Source: Acidobacteriota bacterium (GTDB lineage: Bacteria; Acidobacteriota; Terriglobia; UBA7540). From it: 32,071 bases of DNA. Shown piece by piece: positions 9,195 through 17,587 of the stretch (positions are counted from its first letter, which is position 1; the number at the start of each line of letters is the position of its first letter). The stretch lies in the NCBI GenBank assembly GCA_902812465.1, contig CADDZE010000043.1, positions 1 through 32,071 of the forward strand, given 5' to 3'. The notes under the pieces are model-generated. The model made no database searches. It had not been told where the DNA came from and saw only the letters and a program-made list of their open reading frames with translations. The translations under genes were made by a program, and so were the position numbers.

Positions 9195-10625
9195 ATGGCG
9201 AGGGCGCTGGAGACCTATGCTCGATGGGCGCAGGAGATGCGCAAGGGGCGATTCTTCCGCGCGGGCGAGCGGGTAGGCGTGGCCGCCTCAGGCGGGGCCG
9301 ATTCGACGCTACTCCTCGAATTTATGACCCAGTTCGGGCACGAAGCGGGCCTGGCCGTTGCCGCCGTCCATTTCAATCATCACTTGCGTGGCGCCGAATC
9401 AGACCGCGACGAAGGCTTCGTAGCCGAACGCGCGCAAGCCTTGGGCATTCCCCTGTTCCGGGACGAGGCGGACGTGGCCGCCGTGGCCCATCGCCAGCAC
9501 CGCAACTTGGAAGCCACCGCCCGGGAGCTGCGCTACCGCTTCTTCTTCTCGCTGATTCGGCACGGCACGCTGGATAAGGTGGCCACCGCACACACCGCTC
9601 ACGACCAGGCGGAGACCGTCCTGTTGCGCCTTTTGCGAGGGGCCGGCGCGCGGGGCCTCAGCGGCATCTATCCCGTGCTGGATGGGGTGATCGTACGGCC
9701 CTTTCTCAACCTCACGCGGCGGGAAGTGGAAGACGCCTTGGCCCAGCGCGGGCTGGCATTTCGCACCGATGCTTCGAACCAGGATACGCGGCTGGTTCGC
9801 AACCGTGTGCGGACTCACCTGTTGCCGCTGCTCGAGCGGGAGTTCAACCCAAACATCGTCCGGGAGCTGAAAGACCTGGCCGACCGGGCTCGCCACGATG
9901 AAGCCTTCCTGGAAGAGGCGGCGCGTGAGCGTGCCTTGCCCTGGCGGGTCCGCGAGGGAAGGGAGGAAAGGATTCCGGCCCGGACACTCGCCGATTTCCC
10001 CCCGGCCCTGGCGCGGCGTGTGCTCAGGCAGATGACAGCCAGCGCTGGCGGCCGCCTTCCCAGGCTCACCCACGCGCACCTGCGGCAGCTCGAGCGCTTT
10101 GCCGCCGAAGCGCAGAGCGGACGGAGACTCCTGTTGCCGGGCGGCCTGGAAGCATGCCGTGAATTCGACTGGCTCGTCATCCGGCCGGCAGCCAGCGAGG
10201 CACAGCCTGGAAGGGAGGGTTATGCCTACCCCGTTCGCGTGCCAGGGACGGTGGTAGTGTCCGAGGCGAAGGCTCGCTTTGTCTTCGCGAGAATTCCGGC
10301 TCCCACCAGGGGTGAGAAGCTGTACAATAGCTGCAGGACCGTGTACCTGAACTCAGTTTTCGCTTCTCGGGATGATCTGCTGTTACGCAGCTGGCGGCCA
10401 GGGGATCGCTTTCATCCTGCCGGCAGCCAGCATCCGCACAAGCTGAAGGAATTGCTGCAGCGGCGCAAAATTCCGTTAGCGCAACGGGCGCAGTGGCCGC
10501 TGCTCGTCTCAGGAAACGAGATTGTTTGGGTGCGAGGTATTGCAGTGGCCGCCAGAGCTGTGCTGGAGCCTTCAGCCACGGAGGCATTGAGGATTGTCGA
10601 AGAGCCGCTTGACGGAGGCGCTTAG
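9195..10625 (+). CDS. tilS: tRNA(Ile)-lysidine synthase
   Basis: A 476-residue TilS, which ligates lysine to C34 of the CAU-anticodon tRNA-Ile using ATP, so that the tRNA reads AUA as isoleucine. The PP-loop SGGADS is at residues 32-37, followed by the family block VHFNHHLRG and the helix with HTAHDQAETVLLRLLRGAG. The C-terminal TilS domain is present (WRPGDRF, then KLKELLQRRKIP and the final WVRGIAV). ATG 9195 is preceded by AGGGA. The frame is open further upstream to 9003, but that part overlaps the GH67 remnant and has no TilS character. It is the first gene of the tilS-hpt-ftsH-folP group, with 393 bases to the next gene. Confidence 0.95.
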   Translation: MARALETYARWAQEMRKGRFFRAGERVGVAASGGADSTLLLEFMTQFGHEAGLAVAAVHFNHHLRGAESDRDEGFVAERAQALGIPLFRDEADVAAVAHRQHRNLEATARELRYRFFFSLIRHGTLDKVATAHTAHDQAETVLLRLLRGAGARGLSGIYPVLDGVIVRPFLNLTRREVEDALAQRGLAFRTDASNQDTRLVRNRVRTHLLPLLEREFNPNIVRELKDLADRARHDEAFLEEAARERALPWRVREGREERIPARTLADFPPALARRVLRQMTASAGGRLPRLTHAHLRQLERFAAEAQSGRRLLLPGGLEACREFDWLVIRPAASEAQPGREGYAYPVRVPGTVVVSEAKARFVFARIPAPTRGEKLYNSCRTVYLNSVFASRDDLLLRSWRPGDRFHPAGSQHPHKLKELLQRRKIPLAQRAQWPLLVSGNEIVWVRGIAVAARAVLEPSATEALRIVEEPLDGGA

Positions 10626-10783
10626 CAGCCACCGGAATCACTTGCTCTCATTCCGATGCGCGTCGGCCATCAATCCGCCAAACTGGATCGTGACCCTGCT
10701 TAGAATCGGTAGCTACGGTTGGCCCTAATTTGAACGCGGGGGCTTGGCTCAGAAGAACGGAAAGGCCGGCGCAAAAGGGACGA

Positions 10784-10858
10784 ATGAAGAAATTGGTCTT
10801 ACAAAACCGAAGCAAGTCTAAATTCGCTTCAGAAAAATGGGGCAGGGGGACTGAGTAA
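10784..10858 (+). CDS. Possible 24-residue small protein or leader peptide
   Basis: The ATG at 10784 has AAGGGA 4 bases upstream and runs to TAA at 10856-10858. The product would be basic and begins MKKLVLQNRSKSKF. Base composition is AT-richer than neighbouring genes. I know no family for it. The good ribosome site is the only support, so chance is a serious alternative. Confidence 0.2.
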   Translation: MKKLVLQNRSKSKFASEKWGRGTE

Positions 10859-10892
10859 GCCATCGAAAACGAATGACACATTAGAATTGACG

Positions 10893-10937
10893 AGTCGCTT
10901 ATTTGCGACTTGATTGTTTCTGGCCTACTTCAGTAGG
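10893..10937 (+). repeat. Two hairpins upstream of the HPRT-like gene
   Basis: AGTCGC-TTATTT-GCGACT (10893-10910) and CCTAC-TTCA-GTAGG (10924-10937) are perfect stems of 6 and 5 bp. The second is followed by only three T's, so it is a poor terminator. Both lie 80-130 bases before the start at 11019. Confidence 0.35.
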
Positions 10938-11018
10938 TTTGAGTGAAGCGGCGTTGGCGCACTGTCGGCGGGGGACCGTTCGCTAACCTCGCATCCCGGA
11001 TCTAGGAAAACTCGTGCA

Positions 11019-11585
11019 ATGTACATGCAGGGTAGGACGAAGCAAGGCTGGCGCGTCCTCTACTCAAGGCGGCAGGTTGAGCAGCGAATCGCGCAAATGG
11101 GCCGACAGATCAACCGAGACTATCGCGGCAAGACCGTCCACATGGTCGGCCTCATGGATAATGGCTTCGTCTTCCTGGCCGACCTCGTGCGCTGCCTTAA
11201 AGTCCCCCTGGTCTGCCATTTCGTCAACGTTTCCATGCGGGACGGCACGAAGGTGCGAGAGATTCGGTTTACGCCGCACGTCGATTTAAAGGGTAAACAC
11301 GTTATTTTGGTGGACGCGGTGCTCCGCACGGGCGTCACGCTCGACTATCTATGCAGCCAGATTCTGGCCCAGAAACCCCGCTCCCTGCGCGCCGCGGCGC
11401 TCGTTGATATCGCGGAGGAGCGCAAAGTGGACTTGCCGGTCAGCTACGTAGGATTCCGGCCAGCAGTTAAGGGCAAATACTTGGTGGGCTACGGTCTGGG
11501 GCGGGGCCAGCGGTACCGCAATCTGCGCTGCCTGGCGACGGTGGGGTCGGCGAGCACCCCACGCCGGCACAATGGACCACCCTGA
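11019..11585 (+). CDS. HPRT-like phosphoribosyltransferase-fold protein, active site degenerate
   Basis: A 188-residue protein in the usual place of hpt between tilS and ftsH. The fold is clear: VGLMDNGFVFLADL (43-56) matches the first phosphate-binding strand, HVILVDAVLRTGVTL (94-108) the PRPP loop, and YVGF...LVGYGLG..QRYRNL (143-169) the C-terminal part. The key residues are changed. Aligned to human HPRT, Lys68 is Asp47, Asp134 is Ala100, the general base Asp137 is Arg103, Lys165 is about Ile131, and the metal-binding Asp193 is Gly161. The PRPP-loop TG is kept. Normal HPRT makes IMP/GMP from hypoxanthine/guanine; catalysis here looks unlikely. The frame is intact and codon use normal, so it is not simple decay. 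A regulatory or binding role is an inference. ATG 11019 has AGGA upstream; ATG 11025 is an alternative. Confidence 0.8.
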   Translation: MYMQGRTKQGWRVLYSRRQVEQRIAQMGRQINRDYRGKTVHMVGLMDNGFVFLADLVRCLKVPLVCHFVNVSMRDGTKVREIRFTPHVDLKGKHVILVDAVLRTGVTLDYLCSQILAQKPRSLRAAALVDIAEERKVDLPVSYVGFRPAVKGKYLVGYGLGRGQRYRNLRCLATVGSASTPRRHNGPP

Positions 11586-11680: not shown

Positions 11681-13591
11681 GTGAGTCCAGCCATCAAGAA
11701 CATCGTCTTCTGGGTGATCATGGTAGCGACCGCCCTAGTGCTCTACCTCGTTTTCAAAAGCAGCACTGCCGAGCGCCCCGAGGATTTCACCTTCACCACC
11801 TTCATGACGGAAGTTAGCCACGATGAGGTGAAGGATGTCACCATCGTCGGCAACGAAGTGACGGGACACCTGCGCAAGGACAACCGCGCCTTCCGCACCA
11901 TGATCCCCAGCAACTACCCTGACGTTTACAAGAACCTGCAAGAGAAGAACGTCAACGTCACGATTAAAGATAATTCGGGAAACTCCTGGCTAGCGTGGCT
12001 GGGGAATGGTCTGCTTCCCATCATTATTTTGGTGGTGTTTTGGATCTTCTTTATGCGCCAGATGCAAAGCGGCGGCAACAAAGCGCTGTCGTTCGGGAAG
12101 AGCAGGGCCCGGCTACTTTCCAGCCAGCAGAAGAAGGTGACGTTCAAGGATGTAGCGGGTGTGGACGAGGCGAAGGAAGAGCTCCACGAAATCATTGATT
12201 TTTTGCGGGAACCGCAGAAGTTTCAGAAGCTGGGGGGCCGCATTCCGAAGGGTGTGCTGCTGGTGGGTCCACCCGGCACCGGCAAGACGCTGCTGGCCCG
12301 GGCCATTGCTGGCGAGGCCAACGTCCCCTTCTTCTCCATCTCTGGCTCAGACTTTGTCGAGATGTTTGTGGGCGTAGGTGCTTCGCGCGTCCGGGACCTC
12401 TTCGAGCAGGGCAAGAAGAATGCCCCGTGCATCATCTTCATCGATGAGATCGACGCCGTCGGCCGTCATCGCGGCGCCGGCCTGGGAGGCGGCCACGACG
12501 AGCGCGAGCAGACCTTAAACGCCCTGCTCGTCGAAATGGACGGCTTCGAATCAAACGAAGGGGTCATCCTGATTGCAGCCACTAACCGCCCGGACGTGCT
12601 CGATCCCGCGCTGCTGCGCCCCGGCCGCTTCGACCGCCGCGTAGTGGTGCCCCGGCCAGATGTGGGCGGACGCGAAGGCATCCTGCGCGTCCACACCAAG
12701 AAGATTCCGCTGGCCGATGACGTCGATATTTCCATCTTGGCGCGCGGCACGCCTGGCTTCTCCGGGGCGGATTTAGCCAACTTGGTGAACGAAGCGGCCT
12801 TGCTGGCGGCCCGCCAGAACCGCAAGCAGGTGTCGATGCGCGACTTCGAGGCGGCGAAGGACAAGGTCCTGATGGGAGCGGAGCGCAAGTCGATGATCCT
12901 CTCCGAGGAGGAGAAGCGTAATACCGCCTACCACGAAGCTGGCCACGCGCTGGTGGCCTGCATGATGCCTTACGCCGATCCCATCCACAAGGTGACGATC
13001 ATTCCCCGCGGCATGGCCCTGGGCGTCACCATGCAGCTTCCCGTCGACGACAAGCACACCTACACCAAGGACTACCTCCAGTCGCAGATCGCCATCATGA
13101 TGGGCGGGCGCGTTGCCGAGGAACTTTTCCTCAACCACATCACCACCGGCGCCGGCAATGACATTGAGCAAGCCACCGAGCTGGCCCGCCGTATGGTCTG
13201 CGAGTTCGGTATGTCGGACCTCGGGCCTCTGGCTTTTGGCAAAAACCAGCAGGAAATCTTCCTGGGACGCGACCTGGCGACGACGCGCGATTTCAGTGAG
13301 GACACCGCCATCAAGATCGACCACGAGGTCAAGAAGCTCGTCACCACCGGGTACGAGCGGGCCAAGGACATTCTTTCATCGAACCGCGACGCCCTAATCC
13401 GCATTGCCGAGGCTTTGCTCGAGCGCGAGGTGCTAGACGCCAGCGATGTGAAACTGCTGGTGGAGGGAAAACCGTTGCCGGAGCGCGTCGTGCCCGAGAC
13501 ACCCAAGCCTGCGGTCCCCGAAACCGCGCAGGTGGTTAAGCCTTCGCCGCCCTCCGCGGTTCCCGGCCGTGAGCGGCCGGCGCCTGCGTAG
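11681..13591 (+). CDS. ftsH: ATP-dependent zinc metalloprotease FtsH
   Basis: A 636-residue membrane-anchored AAA+ protease that degrades misfolded membrane proteins and short-lived regulators as a hexamer. Transmembrane segments are at about residues 8-26 and 108-125, with the small periplasmic FtsH_ext domain between them. Walker A is GPPGTGKT (196-203), Walker B IIFIDEID (251-258), the second region of homology ends in RPGRFDRR (313-320), and the zinc site is HEAGH (418-422). The tail after about 600 is Pro/Val-rich and poorly conserved. The start is a GTG at 11681 behind a purine run containing GGGAGG and AAGGAGG; the first hydrophobic segment begins right after it, so no later start is acceptable. 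It lies 95 bases downstream of the HPRT-like gene. Confidence 0.96.
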
Positions 13592-13710: not shown

Positions 13711-14712
13711 ATGGCGGTTCGCCCCCAGTTTCAAGTGCAAGTGGCTGGCCAAACTGTCCACCTGGGCCAGCGCACGCTGATTATGGGCGTGCTGAACGTC
13801 ACGCCCGACTCGTTCTCCGACGGCGGCCGCTACTTCAGCCTCCAGCGGGCGGTAGCGCATGGCGTCGAGCTGGCGCGCGCGGGCGCGGACTGGATCGACG
13901 TGGGCGGCGAGTCCACGCGACCGGGTGCCGAGCCAGTTTCCGCCGAAGAAGAGCTCCGCCGCGTAATTCCCGTCATCCAACGCCTGCGAGAGATGCTTCC
14001 CGCGATTCCCATCTCGGTGGACACCACGAAGGCTGTCGTGGCGGAAGAAGCCTTACGCGCCGGCGCCTCGGTGGTGAATGACGTCAGCGGCTTGCGCTTC
14101 GACCCCGCTATCGCCGACGTCGCGCGGGCGCATCGCGCGCCACTTATCCTGATGCACCTGCGCGGCCGCCCGGCAACGATGCAGCAGGGGCCTTTCGCCC
14201 GCTCCATCTGGAGATCTGTCATCGTGGGATTAAATGCAGCGATCCGACGGGCGCTGGCGCGGGGCGTGAGGCGCGAGCAGCTCATTATCGATCCGGGGCT
14301 CGGATTCGGCAAGACGCGCCGCCAGAATTATGAAATCGCCGCCGGGCTTCGGCGCTTGCGGCGCTTCCACTTGCCGGTGATGGTGGGCGCGTCGCGGAAG
14401 TCGTTCGTCCAGGCGGTGGTGGCAGGCGAAGGGCTGGCCGTTCCGGGAAACTCCGCCCGTAGCGGACGGCTGTGGCCTTTGGCCGAGCGGACGGGGCGGG
14501 GCAGTCCCGCAGCGCGCAAGACCCGCCATGCGCCTCAGGGTTCGAAGCACCCACCACTCCTCGAAGTAGGCGACGCGGCATTCACCGTGGCTACCATCCT
14601 CGCCGGAGCCCACATCGTCCGGGTCCACGACGTCGCCAGCATCCTTCCTGCGGTTCGCATTGCCGATGCCATCCTCTTCGTATCTTCGGGGCAGGTTGCT
14701 CGCCGGCCCTGA
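13711..14712 (+). CDS. folP: Dihydropteroate synthase with internal insertion
   Basis: A 333-residue DHPS, which joins pterin pyrophosphate and p-aminobenzoate to make dihydropteroate in folate synthesis; it is the sulfonamide target. Family blocks are intact: GVLNVTPDSFSDGG (26-39), DVGGESTRPG (63-72), VNDVSG (122-127), MHLRGRPATMQ (148-158), DPGLGFGK (194-201), GASRKSF (226-232) and HIVRVHDV (301-308). The protein is about 50 residues longer than usual because of an Arg/Gly/Pro-rich stretch at about 244-286, between the SRKSF loop and the last barrel strand. The reading frame through it is open and the downstream part is in frame. No clear Shine-Dalgarno precedes ATG 13711; the start is chosen from family length. 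It follows ftsH by 119 bases. Confidence 0.93.
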   Translation: MAVRPQFQVQVAGQTVHLGQRTLIMGVLNVTPDSFSDGGRYFSLQRAVAHGVELARAGADWIDVGGESTRPGAEPVSAEEELRRVIPVIQRLREMLPAIPISVDTTKAVVAEEALRAGASVVNDVSGLRFDPAIADVARAHRAPLILMHLRGRPATMQQGPFARSIWRSVIVGLNAAIRRALARGVRREQLIIDPGLGFGKTRRQNYEIAAGLRRLRRFHLPVMVGASRKSFVQAVVAGEGLAVPGNSARSGRLWPLAERTGRGSPAARKTRHAPQGSKHPPLLEVGDAAFTVATILAGAHIVRVHDVASILPAVRIADAILFVSSGQVARRP

Positions 14713-14830: not shown

Positions 14831-17587
14831 GTGAAACCGAACCGACTTGCCCGCGTCATCGCCGGCCTGGCGTTACTCTTCTTCGTGATCGGCCCCTTGC
14901 TCTCCCGCAGCGTCGACCTGCTGACCGACTGGCTGTGGTTCAACCAGGAAGGGTTTCGCGTACTCTACACCCGGGCGCTGGCGGCGCAGGTCGGGCTCAG
15001 CAGTACGGCCGGCATGGGCTTCATGGCAGTGCTGGCGGCCAATCTGCTGCTGGCCCGGTCATTGGCGCGGCGGCAGGCGTTCCGCGTCTACGGGGAAGTC
15101 ATCGAGTTCCCTATACTGGAGAGGTTCACCGCACTCTTTCGTGGGCTCCTGTGGTTTGGCGTGCTGGTGGTGGGATACCTAGTGGGCCACTGGGCGGCCA
15201 CACACTGGCTGGACTATCTGCTGGCGCAGCATCCTGTGACCATGCACCAGGTCGATCCGCTGTTTGGCCTTGACCTCAGCTTCTATCTCTTCCGCTTGCC
15301 ATTCCTCTGGTTCCTCTATCACCTGGCACTGGTCACGCTGATCTTCTGCTTGCTGGTGAGCGTCTTCAGCTATCTGATCGAGGGCGGCCTATGGGTCACT
15401 GGCCGCGGGCTCTCGACGGGCCGCCACACGCGCATGCACTTGACGGGGCTGGCTGCCCTGCTTTTCCTGCTCTTCGCTTACCGTGCCCGCCTGGCGATGT
15501 ACGAGCTGCTCTACTCGCCGCGCGGCCTGATCTACGGTGCCGGTTACACGGACGTCCACGCCACGCTGCCGGTGCTGCGCCTGATGCTTGTGTTGTGCTT
15601 GGTAACGGCGTTGGTGCTGCTCGCTGAGGCGAGGCGCGGCCGCCTGCGCCGCTCGATTATCTCCGGGCTGGCTTTGGTGGCGGTATCGGTGGTAGGTGGT
15701 GGCATTTATCCCGAACTGATCCAGCGCTTCGTGGTCGCGCCCAATGAAATTGATCGCGAGCAGCCCTACATTGCCCGTTCCATCGAGTTCACCCGCCGCG
15801 CCTACGCGCTCGACCGTTTTGAGGAGCGCGAGTTTGCTGCCCTCGAGAACCTTTCACTTCAGGACTTGCGCGCCAACGATGCCACCTTGCGTAACGTGCG
15901 CTTGTGGGACCACCAGCCGTTGCTCACTACCTTTTCCCAACTCCAGGAAATTCGCACCTACTACGACTTCGCCCGCGTGGATAATGACCGCTATTGGGTG
16001 AACGGTGTCTACCGCCAAGTGTCGCTCTCGCCGCGCGAGCTGAACGCCGCCAGCCTACCGAGCCGCAATTGGATCAACGAGCACCTCACCTACACCCACG
16101 GCTACGGCCTGTGCCTGGGACCAGTCAATGAGTCGACCAGCGACGGCCTGCCCCAGCTCTTCGTTCGGGATATTCCTCCCGTCAGCGACGACGCCATCTT
16201 CCGCATCACCCGCCCCGAAATCTACTTCGGTGAACTGCCGGCCGACTATTGCATTGTCGATACCCGGGTGAAAGAGTTTGACTATCCCTCCGGCGACCGC
16301 AACGTCTACTGCACTTACGCCGGCAGCGGCGGGATTCCCGTTCACAGTTTTTGGCGGCGCCTGCTTTTCGCGCTCAAGTTCGGCGAGCTCAAGGTGCTAC
16401 TTTCCAGCGACATTCAGAACTCAAGCCGCGTCATGATCTACCGCCGCGTGCTCGAGCGCGCCCAGCGCCTTACGCCCTTTTTGCAATACGACAACGATCC
16501 CTACATGGTCATTGGCGCGGACGGCGAACTCTACTGGATGCTCGACGGCTATACGACGTCCGACCGCTACCCCTACTCCGATCCGGTCCCGGGCGTGGGG
16601 AACTACATCCGCAACGCGGTCAAAGCGACCATTAATGCCTACACCGGCCGTGTGCACTTCTACGTCGCCGATTTGACAGATCCTTTGATACGCTCCTACG
16701 CGGAAATTTTTCCCGGAGTTTTTCAGCCGCTCGACCAGATGCCCGCGGACTTGCGCGCCCACATCCGCTACCCCGAGGGATTCTTCAGCATTCAGGCAGG
16801 GCAGTACGCCATCTTTCACATGACCGACCCGCGCGTCTTCTACAACCGGGAGGACTTGTGGCGCGTGGCGCAGAGCGCCGCCCGCGGATCCTCGGCGCCC
16901 ATGACGCCCTACTACACCATCATGAAGCTGGCCGAGGTCGGCACGACGGAAGAGTTCATCCTGATGGTGCCCTTCACCCCTGCCAAGAAAGACAACATGA
17001 TTGCCTGGATCGCCGCCCGCTGCGATCCGCCAAATTACGGCCGGGTGCTAGTGTTCACCTTTCCCAAGCAAAAGCTGGTTTACGGCCCGCAACAGATCGA
17101 GGCGCGTATTGACCAGGACCCGGGCATCTCGCAGCAGCTTACCCTGTGGGACCAGCGGGGGTCCAGGGTAATTCGGGGAACGCTGCTGGTCATTCCGGTA
17201 CTCAACTCGGTGCTCTACGTCGAACCCATCTACCTGGCGGCCGAAGCGGGCGGCAGCCTGCCGCAGCTGAAGCGGGTGATTATCTCCTATGCCGACAATG
17301 TGGTGATGGAAGCCAGCCTCGACGCGGCACTCAGCCGCATCTTTGGTGGCGCGGTCGAGTCGGCTCAGGTGCCGGGAGTGAGCGGCACAGTCCCAGCTGC
17401 CCTCCCGGCGACCGCACTCGCTCAGGCCACCAAGGCGCTCGACCTCCGGGCGTTGGCCCGCGAAGCCAATCAGCACTACGAGCGAGCGCAGCAGCTGCTC
17501 CGCCAGGGTGACTGGAAAGGATACGGCGACGAGATTAAGAGGCTGGGCGAAGTGCTGAAGCAGATGGCTGAGGACCAAAGGCGGTAG
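14831..17587 (+). CDS. UPF0182 family membrane protein
   Basis: A 918-residue member of UPF0182, a family of large membrane proteins of unknown function found in actinobacteria, cyanobacteria and acidobacteria. About seven transmembrane segments occupy residues 1-300 (for example 8-26, 52-75, 97-120, 150-180, 207-225, 255-275 and 282-300). The large soluble domain that follows has family-like stretches such as VAPNEIDREQPYI, TYYDFARVDNDRYW, FTYTHGYG-type (here LTYTHGYG) and NREDLW. The last ~60 residues are a charged helix after an Ala/Pro linker. The GTG at 14831 has GGGAG 7 bases upstream and fits the first transmembrane segment. It is a single gene followed by a strong promoter for the exporter genes. 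Function cannot be given. Confidence 0.93.
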   Translation: MKPNRLARVIAGLALLFFVIGPLLSRSVDLLTDWLWFNQEGFRVLYTRALAAQVGLSSTAGMGFMAVLAANLLLARSLARRQAFRVYGEVIEFPILERFTALFRGLLWFGVLVVGYLVGHWAATHWLDYLLAQHPVTMHQVDPLFGLDLSFYLFRLPFLWFLYHLALVTLIFCLLVSVFSYLIEGGLWVTGRGLSTGRHTRMHLTGLAALLFLLFAYRARLAMYELLYSPRGLIYGAGYTDVHATLPVLRLMLVLCLVTALVLLAEARRGRLRRSIISGLALVAVSVVGGGIYPELIQRFVVAPNEIDREQPYIARSIEFTRRAYALDRFEEREFAALENLSLQDLRANDATLRNVRLWDHQPLLTTFSQLQEIRTYYDFARVDNDRYWVNGVYRQVSLSPRELNAASLPSRNWINEHLTYTHGYGLCLGPVNESTSDGLPQLFVRDIPPVSDDAIFRITRPEIYFGELPADYCIVDTRVKEFDYPSGDRNVYCTYAGSGGIPVHSFWRRLLFALKFGELKVLLSSDIQNSSRVMIYRRVLERAQRLTPFLQYDNDPYMVIGADGELYWMLDGYTTSDRYPYSDPVPGVGNYIRNAVKATINAYTGRVHFYVADLTDPLIRSYAEIFPGVFQPLDQMPADLRAHIRYPEGFFSIQAGQYAIFHMTDPRVFYNREDLWRVAQSAARGSSAPMTPYYTIMKLAEVGTTEEFILMVPFTPAKKDNMIAWIAARCDPPNYGRVLVFTFPKQKLVYGPQQIEARIDQDPGISQQLTLWDQRGSRVIRGTLLVIPVLNSVLYVEPIYLAAEAGGSLPQLKRVIISYADNVVMEASLDAALSRIFGGAVESAQVPGVSGTVPAALPATALAQATKALDLRALAREANQHYERAQQLLRQGDWKGYGDEIKRLGEVLKQMAEDQRR

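Follow-up and report, generated by a model that had tools for sequence, protein, structure and literature searches.

An HPRT homologue between tilS and ftsH in Acidobacteriota: a probable pseudoenzyme family and its candidate role in nucleotide binding

The gene between tilS and ftsH in the acidobacterial genome studied here encodes an HPRT homologue in which nearly all catalytic residues are replaced, and its orthologues throughout the class share these losses. The alignments make it very likely that such copies at the tilS–ftsH locus, here called linked copies, constitute a distinct pseudoenzyme family, marked by loss of catalytic residues together with conservation of the remaining protein. 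This corrects the annotation of these genes, which homology alone would label as purine-salvage enzymes. In the literature that we searched, which omits most subscription journals, no earlier description of an inactive HPRT at tilS–ftsH was found.

The window, i.e., the whole stretch of 32,071 nucleotides that was analysed (contig CADDZE010000043.1), carries the HPRT homologue on the plus strand at 11019–11585, with the ATG at 11019 and the stop codon at 11583–11585. The frame is open over 188 codons and, as the initial annotation had placed it, lies between tilS and ftsH. Both neighbours are on the same strand and were matched by Pfam or NCBIfam profiles: the tRNA-Ile lysidine synthetase gene tilS at about 9195–10625 (ATP_bind_3, TilS and TilS_C; TIGR02432/TIGR02433) and the ATP-dependent zinc metalloprotease gene ftsH at 11681–13591 (TIGR01241, 887 bits). 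The gap between tilS and the HPRT-like gene (10626–11018) measures about 393 bp and contains two short inverted repeats, AGTCGC..GCGACT and CCTACT..AGTAGG; most relatives within the family have a gap of some 100 bp here. A terminator-like hairpin on the plus strand at 10891–10912 is a consensus match only, and it is weak evidence since three such sites occur in the region compared with 1.3 expected. No match to a sigma-70-like promoter was found in the tilS–ftsH region, and no Rfam match to a conserved RNA element within the window. Further downstream, a folP-like ORF (13711–14712) matches dihydropteroate synthase up to residue ~237, after which an unlike stretch of ~50–60 residues, either an insertion or a frameshift pair, precedes the resumed C-terminal part. 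It is followed at 14831–17587 by a gene for a UPF0182 family membrane protein (920 bits).

By sequence homology and by its type I phosphoribosyltransferase (PRT) fold the window protein belongs with the HPRTs. It scored 67 bits with Pfam PF00156, its only Pfam domain, and 121 bits with NCBIfam TIGR01203, which is under the equivalog cut-off of 150; its best PDB match was Thermus HGPRT (3acb, E 5e-31). The PyrR profile gave 27 bits against a cut-off of 218, and among PDB chains a UPRT matched weakly (E 3e-4). An identity as PyrR or UPRT was hence ruled out, with scores far below those for HPRT. Structure prediction had been proposed as a check in the initial annotation and was informative in part: the best Foldseek matches of the AlphaFold2 model were HGPRTs, but at a mean pLDDT of 59 the model is too poor for its pocket geometry to be used.

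Residue changes were read from an alignment to human HPRT, and human numbering is given first. In loop I, the pyrophosphate loop (11154–11165, plus strand), M46-D47-N48-G49 replaces L-K-G-G/A, with K68 changed to D47 and G69 to N48. In loop II, the flexible catalytic loop (residues 69–82; 11223–11264), the Ser-Tyr pair S103/Y104 has become M73/R74, and the loop aligns as about five residues shorter than in relatives. Loop III, D99-A-V-L-R103-T-G-V-T107 (11313–11339), has lost the second acid (D134 to A100) and the general base (D137 to R103), and it retains the 5'-phosphate loop T138-G139-x-T141 as T-G-V-T. Finally, Ile131 (11409–11411) stands in place of the base-contacting K165, and Gly161 (11499–11501) in place of the metal-binding D193. 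The substitutions first reported at the K68, D134, D137, K165 and D193 sites are thus all borne out. The loss in loop III is incomplete, however: E133, its other acid, survives as Asp99, the only member left of the catalytic and metal-binding set K68, E133/D134, D137, D193 and the Ser-Tyr loop. Misalignment was ruled out as an explanation: there are no gaps in the aligned loops I and III, and searches with the single sequence gave results consistent with those from profiles.

Among 61 genomes of the family, order and class, counting typed HPRT homologues only, the catalytic set was lost in every copy located at tilS–ftsH and kept in every unlinked one, apart from conservative exceptions at single positions that include K68 to M (L093) and D137 to E (L089). 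Residues were tallied over 41 linked class copies from the nine families in which the linked copy could be typed. Lys occurs in none of them at the K68 site (E in 31, D in 9, G in 1), nor Asp at the D134 site (G in 29, A in 9, others in the remainder). The general-base site D137 is more varied (Q21, D8, E5, H4 and others), and D193 is mostly Gly (G34, S3, P2, D1 and one other). D/E133 is present in 31/41. The same losses in 41 class copies rule out chance or decay in a single genome, and the losses seen against human HPRT stand when the linked homologues are aligned as well.

Other parts of the linked copies are strikingly constant. G139 occurs in all 41 and T141 in 40, and F52, D55, L56 and R58 are invariant; the FxxADLxR, GF, GYGL and RNL motifs are retained. 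Conserved residues specific to the class also lie outside the catalytic set, e.g., Cys66 (40/41) and Pro86 (33/41). Position 165 is Lys or Arg in 40 copies, the sole exception being the window's own Ile131: the K165 change was read correctly, but it is peculiar to this protein. Given Ile131, the window protein is predicted to be the least typical member of the family for base recognition.

The same genome encodes a canonical HPRT elsewhere (C22:59626–60120), with a complete catalytic set (ILKGA, ASYG, VEDILDTGET, LLDKP, GLDYD) and 206 bits with TIGR01203; the third match of the genome reaches 42 bits, the level of a PyrR-like paralogue. Many relatives likewise carry a second, intact HPRT. From the presence of the C22 enzyme it follows that purine salvage is not what keeps the window gene. 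The initial annotation had assumed a task other than salvage, and this part is upheld by linked orthologues with the same losses, by low dN/dS and by the canonical second HPRT; which task it would be is a matter of inference.

Pairwise dN/dS between close linked copies was 0.04–0.10, compared with 0.03–0.18 for canonical pairs. The linked copies are hence under strong purifying selection, and fast pseudogene drift was ruled out by these values. They nevertheless evolve faster than free copies, with a mean identity of 46% versus 59% over the same genome pairs, and linked and canonical proteins are 34% identical on average. In a tree of 123 proteins, the linked and free labels require 3 changes, compared with 40.7 in shuffles. 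Two of the exceptions are degenerate copies of family f41 that fall into the linked group but have been relocated outside the tilS–ftsH locus (L198:8020–8541 in G108, and L122 in G120); the former has an intact frame and adjoins a putative acyltransferase-like gene and ABC transporter genes. In 23 class genomes the gene is absent and tilS and ftsH are still adjacent, spaced by 101–416 bp versus 599–1059 bp where it is present. The gene thus is dispensable, i.e., useful rather than essential and not a fixed partner of TilS, and the persisting adjacency indicates that the gene order does not depend on the HPRT copy.

Across the phylum, linked copies can be ordered by increasing loss of the active site. 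They are intact in f21, f31 and f47; only the loop II Tyr is changed in f13 and f40, loop II with or without E133 in f57, f27, f17 and f28, and G69 or loop I in addition in f48 and f63. K68 and D134, and finally D193 and D137, are lost in f16, f26, f41, f78, f86, f19 and the class. This graded series would allow the origin of a pseudoenzyme to be traced. Where the linked copy is intact or near-intact, nine families have no free HPRT and two have a second copy (f48, f63); where it is degenerate, a free HPRT is present in 14 families and absent from two (Fisher p = 0.0009, a family-level value that ignores phylogenetic dependence). We take this association as a lead, not as proof. The pattern looks like subfunctionalisation, with salvage performed by the free copy and another task by the linked one. 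A degenerate copy without any second HPRT was seen in several fairly complete genomes (G005, G008, G030, G042, G065 and G075). Because a free copy is present in relatives of most of them, its absence probably reflects a secondary loss or a gap in the draft assembly. Two further genomes show unusual arrangements. G078 has two HPRT-like genes (L142, L170), each adjoining an ftsH-like gene, with loops I and II altered in the second. G057 has an HPRT-like stretch (C18:22877–23422, 86 bits) that is interrupted by an in-frame TAG and may be a canonical copy disrupted not long ago; the only other HPRT of this genome is degenerate.

A copy that is selected although predicted dead, together with a normal copy elsewhere, suggests that the linked protein is probably a nucleotide-binding regulator or a partner protein. 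Judging by its residues, it is a PRT domain that has kept the 5'-phosphate loop and lost catalysis. A nucleotide-binding regulator is favoured since the parts that hold a nucleotide (5'-phosphate loop, Lys/Arg165) remain while those for pyrophosphate, metal and general base are gone. We therefore tentatively prefer, at somewhat less than even weight, a PurR-like non-catalytic phosphoribosyltransferase that regulates by binding nucleotide. For its ligand, partner and regulatory output we infer the following course. The tilS–hpt–ftsH copy and a separate free HPRT would have coexisted in the phylum for long; with salvage carried by the free copy, the linked copy may have been released from catalysis, retaining the fold and the 5'-phosphate loop as well as, almost always, the Lys/Arg that contacts the 6-oxopurine. 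The old active site would then bind GMP/IMP or (p)ppGpp as its purine nucleotide, with neither metal nor turnover involved. Its occupancy could alter contacts with TilS and/or, via a basic tail, with nucleic acid, and the changed contacts might tune expression or activity at the tilS–ftsH locus, in the way that the catalytic HprT acts with TilS on the ftsH promoter of B. subtilis. A more specific version, in which linked copies are stand-alone purine-nucleotide or (p)ppGpp sensors that couple nucleotide status to TilS/FtsH, we regard as rather doubtful. The mean N-terminal charge is +4.4 in linked and −0.3 in free copies, for start codons chosen by rule and with phylogeny ignored. Strongly basic tails are confined to f1 (N-terminal, +8 to +12 in most) and f6 (C-terminal), and those of the window protein carry +3 (N-terminal) and +2 (C-terminal). 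The tails may thus lend weak support to a partner role. Against a regulator stand the loss of the gene from 23 class genomes, the f41 copy kept off the locus, the missing DNA-binding domain and the several genomes that have a degenerate copy without a second HPRT. Furthermore, I131 and the acidic loop I of the window protein would weaken phosphate binding.

The strongest rival, although in itself unlikely, is a non-catalytic scaffold that can no longer bind nucleotides and whose retention would be due solely to a role as dimerising partner for TilS, FtsH or some other protein. Destruction of loop I and of the metal site, replacement of loop II and the class-specific C66 and P86 would all suit a scaffold, as would the fact that the most conserved block is the FxxADLxR helix with its four invariant residues. 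However, a scaffold gives no reason why G-x-T and K/R165 should be kept in 40–41 of 41 copies. It is distinctly less probable that the protein is still a phosphoribosyltransferase and has switched to another base. Uracil phosphoribosyltransferases have a D-P-M-L-A-T-G type of loop III and function without the second acid or the general base, and the window's D-A-V-L-R-T-G resembles this loop; the weak UPRT match, D/E133 in 31/41, the kept T/S-G-x-T and the strong purifying selection point the same way. Yet the change of the pyrophosphate-loop Lys-Gly to Glu/Asp-Asn/Asp should repel pyrophosphate, the metal ligand Asp193 is gone, and profile scores place the protein much nearer to HPRT than to either UPRT or PyrR.

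More improbable again is a low-level or regulatory subunit that joins the cell's canonical HPRT in hetero-oligomers and modulates that enzyme. Both copies do co-occur in many genomes, and dimer/tetramer assembly of HPRT is regulatory (PMC6783271), but several fairly complete genomes, e.g., G005 and G008, have the degenerate copy without a canonical one, and the average identity between the two proteins is only 34%. A pseudogene in the course of being lost, in turn, would agree with the faster evolution and with the 23 class genomes without a copy; it is already contradicted by open frames and fold motifs across the class, by the dN/dS of 0.04–0.10 and by pocket columns kept in 40–41 of 41, and we consider it very improbable.

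To our knowledge, the widespread tilS–hpt–ftsH gene order has been explained only by one study in B. subtilis. Evolution seemingly removed the enzymatic role here and kept the rest, so any phenotype of the gene would show directly what HPRT does at tilS–ftsH apart from catalysis. Should the rather doubtful sensor version prove right, the linked copies would represent a natural separation of HPRT moonlighting from its enzymatic role, and both the modification of tRNA-Ile by TilS and membrane proteolysis by FtsH would be tied to nucleotide status.

With the HPRT enzyme of tilS–hpt–ftsH loci in Firmicutes and Actinobacteria (EC 2.4.2.8, TIGR01203), the window protein shares fold and gene order, 32–40% identity over 160 residues, and the 5'-phosphate loop, FxxADLxR, GYGL and YRNL motifs. 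It differs in that K68, G69, S103/Y104, D134, D137, K165 and D193 are replaced, in that it scores under the HGPRTase cut-off and in that a canonical HPRT is encoded elsewhere in the genome. According to PMC8152036, which cites Lin et al. 2014, a complex of TilS and HprT activates ftsH transcription in B. subtilis, where the same three genes adjoin. A dead HPRT at tilS–ftsH would fit a specialist for this role; B. subtilis HprT, however, is an active enzyme, whereas the window gene is predicted dead from its sequence, and many relatives lack the gene. Contacts in the (p)ppGpp site of Bacillus HPRT are made, among others, by K131, by the E99/D100 side chains, by the backbone of loop I and by backbone amides of loop III (PMC6783271). 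Bacillus PurR, a PRT that lacks enzymatic activity, needs no Mg to bind ppGpp, whose 3' phosphates are contacted by Lys207 (Arg in the remainder; PMC8789054). The window protein shares with PurR the PRT fold, a 5'-phosphate loop and, as predicted, the missing activity. By motif, Lys/Arg207 apparently falls at the place of the general base, which is Arg103 in the window protein and Gln in most relatives, so that among these proteins the likeness would be confined to that of the window. Unlike PurR, which has an N-terminal winged helix DNA-binding domain, the 188-residue window protein has only PF00156. Among vertebrates, PRTFDC1 (PDB 2jbh) is an HPRT paralogue that is reportedly nearly inactive through a change of the general base. 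Like the window protein it derives from the HPRT family, but few of its residues are changed, whereas the window protein has lost the pyrophosphate loop and the metal sites as well.
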